Of a stretch of DNA of 64,000 nucleotides, positions 18,324 to 47,435 are shown piece after piece. Where the stretch lies: NCBI GenBank assembly GCA_017634595.1, contig JAGBNC010000015.1, positions 62,001 through 126,000 of the forward strand, written 5' to 3'. The position numbers and the translations under genes are program-made. The notes beneath the pieces were generated by a model, which saw only the letters and a list, made by a program, of their open reading frames with translations, was not told where the DNA came from and made no database searches. Every line of letters begins with the position of its first letter. Positions within the stretch are counted from its first letter, which is position 1. The DNA is from Bacteroidales bacterium (lineage in GTDB: Bacteria > Bacteroidota > Bacteroidia > Bacteroidales > UBA932).

Positions 18324-18484
18324 GTTTTGAAATGATCGGCCGGGTGAATATGCACTGGAAGCTTTCAGAAGCATATTCTCCCGGCCGGTCTCGCTTTTCA
18401 GGGGATACCGGCCGGACTTTGAAAATGTAAGTTACTGATAATCAGCAGTGATAGGACTGACGTCCCGGCCGATCATTTCAAAAC
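18324..18484. repeat. Nested palindromic element with 21-bp perfect arms
   Basis: The outer arms at 18324-18344 and 18464-18484 are perfect inverse copies (core AAATGATCGGCCGGG). Inside, CGGCCGGG-GAATATGC-type sequence at 18337-18353 pairs again with 18371-18387 with one mismatch, so the left arm has two possible partners. The rest of the 18264-18641 gap holds a CTGCAGCGC direct repeat (18489-18497 and 18523-18531) and no gene. Confidence 0.7.
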
Positions 18485-32522: not shown

Positions 32523-33656
32523 ATGACACTTCGTTTCGATTCGTCAGGCGTCGCTTACGATATCTCTGTGGGCAGGGGACTGCTTGCGGAGGCCGGACGC
32601 TTGTTCAATCTGAAACGTAAAGTGCTGGTAGTTACCGACGACGGCGTGCCTCAGCAGTACGCCAATGCGCTGCTTGACCAGTGCCTGGAGGGCACTCTGC
32701 TGGTGATTCCCCAGGGCGAAGGCTCCAAAAGTATAGCCGGGCTTGAAAGGATATTGGGCACTCTGCTTGACAAGGGTTTTACCCGCAGCGATGCTATAGT
32801 TGCCGTGGGCGGAGGCGTGGTGGGCGATGTATCAGGATTTGCCGCTGCGTGCTATCAGCGCGGCATAGATTATTACAATGTGCCTACCACTTTGCTGTCG
32901 CAGGTGGATTCTTCCGTGGGCGGTAAGACTGCTGTTAACTTCCATGGCGTCAAGAATATAGTGGGAGCTTTCCATCATCCTTCCGGGGTGCTGGTGGATC
33001 CTGCCGTGCTGGAGACCCTGAGCCTGAGGCTCTTCGCCGAAGGGATGGCGGAAGTTATCAAGATGGCGGCATCGCTTGACGCATCCCTCTTTGAACTGCT
33101 TGAATCGGCTGATGATATACATCCGCTGCTTCCTGAGATTATCTACAGGGCGCTTAAGCTTAAGCTGGAGGTGGTTACTCAGGATCCTTCGGAAAAGGGT
33201 CTCCGTGCCGTGCTTAATTTCGGACACACAATAGGCCATGCCGTAGAAGCGGCCGGCGCTCTGTGCTGCAGTAGTGGTGACACAGGCGTCGCTTCGCGAC
33301 CCCTCCCTGAAGGGCCCCTCCCTCTTACGGAGCCGAGGGTGGCTACGGCCTGTGTCACCACTACTGCAGCACAGAGCGCCGGGTACTTTCACGGCGAAGG
33401 AGTGGCTATAGGTATGACCTATACTTCAGAGGGAGACGCCAGAAGACGTATAGAAAAACTGCTGCTGAAGTACGGACTCCCAGTTTCCGACCCATTTGAC
33501 GCCAGCGAACTCATGCGCCTCGCCGCCAGCGACAAAAAACGCAGGGGCTCTCTTACCCGTGTTGTAATCGTCAACAGTATAGGGACATACTCCTTCCGCG
33601 ATCTGAACGATACTGAACTTCTCACCCTTATACAGAAGCGTAAAGATGAAGAATAG
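32523..33656 (+). CDS. aroB: 3-dehydroquinate synthase with an in-frame palindromic insert
   Basis: The 377-residue enzyme makes dehydroquinate from DAHP. Typical motifs are IPQGEGSKS (about 63), GGGVVGDVSGFAAACYQRGIDYYNVPTTLLSQVDSSVGGKTAVN (about 98-141), EGMAEVIKMA and NFGHTIGHAVEAA (about 230-243). Directly after HAVEAA about 42 residues (about 245-287, including LCCSSGDTG and PLPEGPLPLTEP) are inserted before GYFHGEGVAIGM. Homologues have a short loop here, and the His of GHTIGHA and the His of FHGEG both bind the metal, so the insert separates two ligands. The frame is intact and the remaining length is normal, so the protein may be active. Overlaps aroC by 11 bases. Confidence 0.93.
   Translation: MTLRFDSSGVAYDISVGRGLLAEAGRLFNLKRKVLVVTDDGVPQQYANALLDQCLEGTLLVIPQGEGSKSIAGLERILGTLLDKGFTRSDAIVAVGGGVVGDVSGFAAACYQRGIDYYNVPTTLLSQVDSSVGGKTAVNFHGVKNIVGAFHHPSGVLVDPAVLETLSLRLFAEGMAEVIKMAASLDASLFELLESADDIHPLLPEIIYRALKLKLEVVTQDPSEKGLRAVLNFGHTIGHAVEAAGALCCSSGDTGVASRPLPEGPLPLTEPRVATACVTTTAAQSAGYFHGEGVAIGMTYTSEGDARRRIEKLLLKYGLPVSDPFDASELMRLAASDKKRRGSLTRVVIVNSIGTYSFRDLNDTELLTLIQKRKDEE
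33253..33382. repeat. 130-bp palindromic element inside aroB
   Basis: Two perfect inverse arms of 35 bp lie at 33253-33287 and 33348-33382 (arm core CTGTGCTGCAGTAGTGGTGA) around a 60-bp centre. CCGG flanks it on both sides, possibly a 4-bp target duplication; the net insert would be 126 bp or 42 codons. The centre, read on the minus strand, shares GGGAGGGGCCC, GGGAGGG and GCGAAGCGA with the element in aroE-aroK. Confidence 0.85.
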
Positions 33657-34738: not shown

Positions 34739-36112
34739 ATGCTTTACGGACTGATTGGCGAACATCTTGGACATAGTTTCTCCCGCGATATTCACGGGAG
34801 ACTTTCTTCCGATCCTTACGAGCTCTGCGAGCTGCGTCCGGACGAGCTTGGAGATTTCCTGCGGCGAAGAGACTTCCGCGGCATCAATGTGACCATTCCC
34901 TACAAGCAGGCTGTGATGCCTTATCTGGATGAACTCGAAGAGTCGGCAAGAGGTGCGGGCGCTGTGAACACTATTGTGAACCGGGATGGTAAGCTCCGGG
35001 GATACAATACTGATTATGACGGCTTTATAGCTTTGGCCCGGCATGCCGGGATTGATTTCGGCGGCGCTCGTGTGGTTATACTTGGAGCCGGAGGCGCCGC
35101 TAAGGCCGTGCGGGCAGCTGCCTTGGCTATGGGTGCAGCGGAGCTTGTTAATGCTGTGCGTACTGTGCGCGGCGATGGACAGCTTCCTATCGATGATCCA
35201 GCTACTTACGACGGCTGCAATGTGTTGGTGAATGCTACTCCCGTGGGTATGTATCCTAAGTGGCAGGAGGCTCCAATTGAGTTGCAGGCTCTGTTGCCCC
35301 GTATGCAGTTACGGGGTGTGCTTGACTGCATTTACAATCCTCTCCGTACTCCTTTGGTCCTGGATGCACGTTCCCTTGCCGGCAGTCCGGCGCTGGGGGA
35401 TGCGGCCGGGACCGTGGCCGCCCGTGGCCACGTGAACGGGAGGGGCCCGCGCGAAAGCGTGGGAGGGACGAGCGAAGCGAGGTCAACGGCAGCCTCCCCC
35501 AGCACCGTACTGCCAGCAGAGGGCGGACTTATGATGCTGGTGGCACAGGCGGTCAAAGCGAGGGAGTATTTTACCGGGGAAAGCATCCCGGATGAAGTGA
35601 TAGAAAAAGAATACCGGCATCTGCTTAACACTAAGCAGAATATCGTTCTGTGCGGAATGCCGTCCAGCGGCAAGAGCACCGTGGCCAAGGCTTTGGCTGA
35701 GAGAACAGGACGCCGAGTGGTGGATACTGATGAAATTGTGGCTCTACAGGCCGATATGGAGATCCCTGAAATCTTTGCCCGCGAAGGCGAACAGGGCTTC
35801 CGGGCTCGCGAGACGGTGGCAATCGAGTCGATAGCTTCCGAGCAGGGCTTGATAATCGCTACCGGCGGAGGTGCCGTACTCAAGCCTGAGAATGTCCGAA
35901 TGCTCCGCAGCAACGGGCTTGTGTGCCTGCTTGAACGCGACCTTGCCCTTCTCACTCCCGGCGGCGGACGCCCTCTTGCTCCGGATCGAAGCGCACTGCG
36001 CGCCCTTTGGCATAGGCGTCTTCCTGCATACCTTGCAGCAGCAGACGTAAGGATAGACAATAACGGCACGCTGGACCATACTATTTCACAACTGCTAAGT
36101 TATGTTGACTGA
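34739..36112 (+). CDS. aroE-aroK: AroE-AroK fusion (shikimate dehydrogenase + kinase) with palindromic insert
   Basis: A 457-residue fusion. Residues 1-290 are shikimate dehydrogenase: GLIGEHLGHSFSRDIH, NVTIPYKQAVMPYLDE with the catalytic Lys, GAVNTIVN, GYNTDYDGF with the catalytic Asp, NADP loop ILGAGGAAKAVRAAA, VNATPVGMYP and AEGGLMMLVAQA. Residues about 295-457 are shikimate kinase with the P-loop GMPSSGKSTVAKAL, DTDEIVAL and TGGGAVLKPENVRML. Between VLDARSLA and AEGGLMML about 45 extra residues (about 215-259) are encoded by a palindromic element. The fusion joins two consecutive steps separated by nothing else in the pathway. It ends 11 bases inside tyrA. Confidence 0.93.
   Translation: MLYGLIGEHLGHSFSRDIHGRLSSDPYELCELRPDELGDFLRRRDFRGINVTIPYKQAVMPYLDELEESARGAGAVNTIVNRDGKLRGYNTDYDGFIALARHAGIDFGGARVVILGAGGAAKAVRAAALAMGAAELVNAVRTVRGDGQLPIDDPATYDGCNVLVNATPVGMYPKWQEAPIELQALLPRMQLRGVLDCIYNPLRTPLVLDARSLAGSPALGDAAGTVAARGHVNGRGPRESVGGTSEARSTAASPSTVLPAEGGLMMLVAQAVKAREYFTGESIPDEVIEKEYRHLLNTKQNIVLCGMPSSGKSTVAKALAERTGRRVVDTDEIVALQADMEIPEIFAREGEQGFRARETVAIESIASEQGLIIATGGGAVLKPENVRMLRSNGLVCLLERDLALLTPGGGRPLAPDRSALRALWHRRLPAYLAAADVRIDNNGTLDHTISQLLSYVD
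35377..35518. repeat. 142-bp palindromic element inside aroE-aroK
   Basis: Imperfect 31-bp inverse arms at 35377-35407 and 35488-35518 (26 of 31 paired; core GCTGGGGGA) enclose an 80-bp centre with GTGGCC/GGCCAC and GGGAGGGGCCC ... GGGAGGG ... GAGCGAAGCGA. It adds about 135 bp (45 codons) without breaking the frame. The centre is the reverse orientation of the element in aroB. Confidence 0.8.
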
Positions 36113-47371: not shown

Positions 47372-47435
47372 ATAATCTTCTGCATTCCGGGGCCCGTAAA
47401 GCATGGGAAAAGGGCCCCGGAATGCAGAAGATTAT
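47372..47435. repeat. Perfect 24-bp palindrome with 16-base loop
   Basis: The arms 47372-47395 and 47412-47435 are exact inverse copies (core TCTGCATTCCGGGGCCC). The loop is GTAAAGCATGGGAAAA. It lies between the nuclease promoter and the tRNA terminator and might stop transcription in either direction or be a small palindromic repeat. Confidence 0.75.

Follow-up and report, generated by a model that had tools for sequence, protein, structure and literature searches.

The amino-acid-synthesis gene aroB of the gut-type Bacteroidales bacterium studied here carries an in-frame palindrome that is, on balance, probably a copy of an undescribed family of palindromic elements, one that entered as mobile DNA, is translated through, and has had its arms kept paired and its cores flipped by strand switching. 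The repeated part of this family is its center (the core) and not its arms, and the phenomenon is genus-wide rather than a single case. The genus is probably Cryptobacteroides, a name suggested by one named record. The family is undescribed as judged from the titles and abstract openings of the papers listed by literature searches, which mention neither palindromic elements in Cryptobacteroides nor the present family.

The window, by which we mean the whole 64,000-nucleotide stretch of DNA analyzed, has these features at aroB:

32523..33656, plus strand: aroB (3-dehydroquinate synthase, 377 aa), with the element inside its open frame
33253..33287, plus strand: left palindrome arm, 35 bp
33288..33347, plus strand: 60-bp core, common to other copies of the family
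33288..33300, plus strand: hairpin H1, with a 5-bp stem and triloop TTC, which is GAA on the opposite strand, from the sequence and the family pattern
33305..33314, plus strand: hairpin H2 in a short form, CCC-TGAA-GGG, from the sequence
33327..33347, plus strand: hairpin H3, from the sequence and conserved family positions
33348..33382, plus strand: right palindrome arm, 35 bp

As the initial annotation had claimed, perfect 35-bp inverse arms with a 60-bp center lie inside aroB (35 of 35 positions paired, 0 mismatches, 60-nt spacing; 130 bp in all, 33253-33382), and the open reading frame (ORF) reads through them without an internal stop. Its protein and domain matches are to dehydroquinate synthases, with the Pfam DHQS_C domain matched in two stretches. 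The H3 loop, GAGGGT (33335-33340), could pair with an upstream CCCTC to form a pseudoknot, to go by the letters. A chance origin of the palindrome is implausible: an ungapped scan for inverted repeats with arms of ≥18 bp found none in 400 kb of letter-shuffled DNA from a related genome, and the 130 nt fold far more stably than shuffled versions, both as RNA (−100.2 versus −51.9 ± 4.0 kcal/mol; z about −12) and as DNA (−61.3 versus −24.6 ± 2.8; z about −13). The same scan found three inverted repeats in the real window, with the core present only in the aroB one. The window also holds a perfect inverted repeat with 21-bp arms spaced 119 nt apart (18324-18484), which lacks a core match, and a perfect 24-bp inverted repeat with a 16-nt spacer (47372-47435), which scores only 12 bits against our covariance model.

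Similar DNA is dispersed through the genome and the genus. The initial annotation would have given up its reading had there been no such DNA elsewhere in the genome; BLAST with the element finds 12 further places at E ≤ 0.001, and a covariance model (R1) built from 56 copies finds 26 matches. The model scores the aroB copy, itself one of the 56, at 99.9 bits over 33264-33371. Of the 101 genomes of the genus, 83 have at least one match to it (ours included; 1 to 36 per positive genome), and 7 of the 48 good-quality genomes are without one; an order-wide search, in which the 12 best candidates per genome were scored, gave matches in 5 of 295 genomes, again including ours. Searching named genomes with a core pattern recovered at least 119 stretches. 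Among the matches listed, titles read Bacteroidales or Bacteroidia, many with rumen or ruminant labels; one is Candidatus Cryptobacteroides caccocaballi and one is labeled Lachnospiraceae. The contig with the latter label (L199, near position 2917) has half a core and no clear stem, and may reflect a binning error or transfer. The core pattern found no match in viral contigs, phage records gave none, and no autonomous copy with a gene in its core was seen among 43 rows checked, many of which are ordinary additional copies. Comparison of 11 copies from our genome gave no sign of a recent burst.

The typical element is ∼120 to 130 bp long, with a stem of ∼27 bp (35 in the aroB copy) and, at its top, three short hairpins that form the conserved core. 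Stem statistics come from 104 nonredundant copies out of 130, after dropping those whose stem alignment was <18, that lay too near an end, or whose left arm was ≥16/20 identical to a copy already kept. Stem positions 1 to 27 form Watson-Crick pairs in 66 to 100% of these copies, as opposed to 25 to 80% when left and right arms of different copies are combined, the 80% being due to position 1, which is nearly invariant; pairing then declines toward background over positions 28 to 30, reaching 29% by position 30. All four Watson-Crick pair types occur at every stem position. Among the 11 copies from our genome, arms are 33% and cores 84% identical, and across loci there is a weak consensus at inner arm positions. 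Since the search for copies relied on the conserved half of the core, core conservation and invariance are partly built in. One subtype shows a recurrent A·C mismatch at stem positions 14 to 16 (11 occurrences in 25 copies), and in two related genomes many copies have, by eye, an unpaired extra base near the same positions. The ungapped scan misses such bulged stems, which are frequent in 1.2 Mb of a relative (G404): of the 14 inverted repeats (arms ≥18 bp) that it recovered there, only 3 have a core-like center.

Within the 117 distinct cores, H1 is usually 5 to 7 bp long, and its triloop is TNC in 75 of 88 cases, with all four bases represented at N; 26 cores have no perfect H1. H2 varies in length, and H3 has a GAGGGT loop that could pair upstream. 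The TNC loop reads GNA on the complementary strand, and GNA loops are a type found in very stable DNA hairpins. This hints that folded single-stranded DNA may be the recognized form.

About half of the copies lie inside genes. Of 120 testable copies, 61 are in ORFs that run on without a stop for 60 codons to either side, compared with 2,448 of 3,720 random windows: copies are somewhat rarer in ORFs than chance placement would give, but far from excluded. A Pfam scan of 30 of the 61 host proteins left 10 without a match at the cutoff. The element falls within a single Pfam stretch in an RNase R-type RNB domain (L090), a radical SAM N-terminal domain (L085), a PP-loop ATPase (L140), and an aminotransferase (L200); it lies between domains in a PolA-like protein (L179), FAD synthase-like proteins (L116 and L138), a TldD-like protein (L180), and MiaB-like enzymes (L098 and L141), and past the last matched domain in DnaX (L087). 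When copies at the same site are compared, the length difference is a multiple of 3 for 62 of the 80 pairs inside ORFs versus 24 of the 47 others; these pairs are not independent, all rows having been retained, and for some spanning alignments the remainders conflict with the reciprocal comparison (for example, L094/L243). Such frame-keeping length differences favor translation through the element.

A second element lies in the next gene but one after aroB:

34739..36112, plus strand: aroE-aroK fusion (457 aa), with the element in frame
35373..35408, plus strand: left arm, imperfect
35409..35486, minus strand: core, divergent (family-2), in the orientation opposite to the aroB copy; 42.1 bits to R1 over 35390-35505
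35487..35523, plus strand: right arm, imperfect

This element spans 35373-35523 and, by hand count, adds about 43 codons in our genome. In AroE, an in-frame element occupies one same loop in 5 of 22 genomes, in both orientations, and the loop is empty in the other 17; in two of the five the arms match perfectly, over 33 and 31 bp.

The AroB loop was tallied in 22 genomes of the genus that have an AroB of the window type and a readable loop, with loci of one genome merged. It is short in 16 and carries an insert in 6 (ours, G023, G047, G048, G027, and G332), a distribution at odds with the possibility, allowed for earlier, that most relatives share the same 42-residue loop. This tally leaves out four AroBs (L035, L039, L043, and L047) whose type is more distant; the loop of L047 is longer. 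The initial annotation gave GCGGCCGGGTAC as the exact empty aroB site; the closest genome found is only ∼75% identical here (G295; 73 to 75% DNA identity), and its AroB loop is short (GHAIEALGAAGRQFLHGE). The gain in AroB is in frame, as was proposed, with a size nearer 35 to 40 codons than the 42 originally estimated. Counted by hand, His235 and His290, which we take to be metal ligands of dehydroquinate synthase, are 55 residues apart in the window AroB versus 15 to 20 in relatives without an insert. The inserts themselves differ: G048 has a 27-bp perfect stem with the other (family-2) core, G023 and G047 have a family-1 core in the opposite orientation with 29-bp arms of another sequence, and G027 and G332 have larger, composite inserts. 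These differences show that elements have inserted more than once, or have replaced one another, in the AroB loop, which does not hold a single insert kept unchanged.

Copies stay at their sites in diverged species while their sequences change. Twenty same-site comparisons, drawn from 13 sites, cover 540 stem positions; at 75 of these both sides changed and pairing was retained, a total that omits 1 of 21 pairs (L128/L156) and in which other sites are still represented more than once. In the same 540 positions, 64 changed on one side only and 24 on both sides without being paired in both copies; as one-sided changes are nearly as many as paired double changes, pairing also decays. The core is inverted at 7 of 13 distinct sites with 80 to 97% flank identity and the same core family; sites were grouped by eye, and three of the seven inversions were viewed as alignments, the other four coming from the script alone. 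Elements can be inverted between species with ∼90% identical flanks, and at one tldD site species that are 90% identical carry different core families. The raw same-site tally is 61 in the same orientation, 35 flipped, 10 of the other family, and 150 with none matched; it includes duplicates and distant pairs, "none" covers empty sites, drifted cores, and family-2 cores missed by the pattern, and same-site rows at 100% represent one genome present in two collections. Besides aroB and aroE, one FAD-protein locus has an empty site in relatives. Of 12 loci from G403 sought in 1.2 Mb of G404, 5 could be placed, and none of the 5 is empty there: one holds the other core family, and some hold drifted cores. 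Visual inspection of the few empty/filled pairs, which are ∼80 to 86% identical, showed no target-site duplication.

Near position 6000 of L266 (G404), 16 bp of host coding DNA recur in inverted form next to an element, across a 4-nt loop and without a core; this palindrome is absent from L215, which is 92 to 94% identical. Elsewhere, in G583, ten element copies in another family (L299 to L308) share 21- to 22-bp arms, a common mismatch, and outer flanks, and at several sites the left-arm sequence recurs about 80 to 100 bp away. Two other genera have several copies that are alike in both their arms and their outer flanks. Because the outer flanks are common too, arm sharing in other genera may reflect segmental duplication, and for the same reason we discounted the G583 arms as a young burst.

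The sequence of events that we favor is as follows. The elements would have entered as mobile, nonautonomous DNA, and insertions that were in frame, free of stops, and situated in tolerant loops would have survived, to be translated as loops of about 35 to 45 residues; AroB should accordingly still work, given such an insert. Strand switching inside the hairpin (quasipalindrome correction) may then copy changes from arm to arm and flip the core, with the result that the two arms change together and the core ends up in either orientation at random. Strict strand switching predicts neither a fixed stem length nor a recurring A·C mismatch, which suggests selection on structure, perhaps for recognition by an enzyme. 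No transposition event was seen among the copies compared. Retrotransposition was considered as the motor and set aside, because reverse transcriptase (PF00078) occurs in 5 of 7 element-rich genomes (ours, G016, G042, G065, G095, G097, and G058) versus 4 of 7 element-free genomes and does not track copy number. The window itself has a reverse-transcriptase-like match at 2252-2521 (PF00078, 37.9 bits) within a 589-codon open frame.

The arms might instead have been made at insertion, if a core landed and neighboring host DNA was copied back in inverted form, yielding locus-specific arms. Several sites have this appearance: in our aroE the residues LPAEGG (compare IPAEGG in many empty relatives) are encoded in the right arm, of which the left arm is an inverted copy; at the FAD-protein site the outer ends TCCATCGCC and GGCGATGGA adjoin host TCCAT; and the L266 palindrome copies host coding DNA with no core at all. 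However, copying of one arm is also expected from later strand switching, the inner arm positions show a weak consensus across loci, and the net gains in aroB and aroE exceed a core plus one arm, so that most of the arm arrived with the insert. We therefore think such an origin unlikely, though deserving some weight; its fullest form, in which an inverted duplication of the host target is the main source of both arms, was rejected because the net gains are too large.

We are more doubtful still that the elements are functional cis-acting RNAs under selection (terminators, processing sites, or riboswitch-like structures). Compensatory changes in stem and hairpins together with invariant unpaired positions in the family model would suit such a role, bearing in mind that copies were chosen partly by their core, as would the recurring stem mismatch and the persistence of copies at the same sites in diverged species. 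Yet the core lies in both orientations relative to the coding strand of host ORFs (37 versus 24 copies) and flips at single sites, so no one RNA strand is kept; moreover, Rfam at gathering score matched no element in 11 loci, its one match being an SRP RNA elsewhere in L088.

The insert could also go untranslated, through ribosome bypass or splicing: the hairpin would be very stable in mRNA, and bypassed palindromic inserts are mentioned for Magnusiomyces mitochondria in PMC6649704. This seems very improbable, since ORFs stay open through 61 of 120 copies and same-site length differences keep the frame more often inside ORFs than elsewhere, neither of which bypass or splicing needs. An assembly artifact, conceivable insofar as the named records are nearly all labeled as metagenome-assembled genomes or uncultured metagenome isolates, can be dismissed with near certainty, because the same aroB and aroE loops hold elements in several genomes and other sites are common to assemblies of different projects.

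Housekeeping genes with in-frame palindromes are known chiefly from Rickettsia, and the comparison with Rickettsia palindromic elements (RPEs) drawn by the initial annotation is apt in the sense that both appear to work alike. RPEs, for which the source work is Ogata et al. (2000/2002) as cited in PMC6649704 and PMC10969869, are palindromes of ∼150 bp in unrelated genes, nearly half of them in ORFs and in frame (PMC10969869), whose inserts are reported not to abolish protein activity and to lose repeat identity over time (PMC6649704). The present elements are likewise palindromes of ∼100 to 150 bp in frame in unrelated protein genes, a likeness of form and placement, with no claim of RPE membership. 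They differ in having a host of an unrelated phylum, locus-specific arms, and cores that flip; and many arm changes are paired here, in contrast to the identity loss reported for RPEs, although decay occurs here too.

The earlier statement that no case had been described in Bacteroidales needs care. A 2013 survey (PMC3733652) reports CGTC-tagged repetitive extragenic palindromes (REPs) in Bacteroidetes, as well as the tag on Rickettsia RPE sequences, intragenic REPs in several species, stems of 5 to 13 bp, and an apparent lack of a dedicated transposase for CGTC repeats. Our elements resemble REPs as small palindromes, some of them intragenic, in a phylum that also has the CGTC class, and H1 often begins (C)GTC. 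But the stem is ∼27 bp long with three hairpins above it, and GTC sits inside the H1 stem, whereas the REPs of that survey are defined by a 5- to 13-bp stem with a GTAG or CGTC tag at one end. A RAYT transposase was rejected as the mover: our genome, which is 97% complete, has one Y1_Tnp match, at 20.9 bits, below the 23-bit cutoff.

MITEs have terminal inverted repeats common to their copies, whereas the arms here are the variable part, even if arms are alike among some of the copies found in other genera; site-specific invertons have a recombinase-specific repeat consensus, and the present arms share only the weak inner one. Long coding inverted repeats occur in mitochondrial genes of Nematomorpha, where shared positions differ in sequence between species, arms stay identical, and both arms encode conserved protein regions (PMC6649704). 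The likeness lies in long inverted repeats within coding sequence whose arms vary yet stay matched; the difference is that no common core is reported in the part of that paper available, and ours are inserts of a dispersed family. Chloroplast hairpins undergo recurrent small inversions, a similar flipping of sequence between palindromic arms but with no dispersed coding family, and avian inversion hotspots were found to lack stem-loops (PMC3123225).

A more far-reaching reading, which we offer tentatively and hold to be rather improbable, is that these elements would be mobile DNA that, throughout the genus, is defined by its shape and not by arm sequence: an enzyme would recognize the folded strand by its set stem length, its defect, and its GNA-loop hairpins, accepting stems of any sequence that pairs. 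Because the cores invert and keep several frames open (4.5 of 6 on average, versus 3.9 for shuffled letters), they might also serve as invertible peptide cassettes in the loops of housekeeping enzymes.

With a Bacteroidales genus that has many copies, about half of those sampled being in ORFs, comparison of species can test how palindromic DNA adds protein sequence. The copies also offer natural replicates for studying how replication keeps the arms of a palindrome matched and flips centers. Finally, they advise caution in interpreting such proteins, whose loops can be born of DNA rather than selected.
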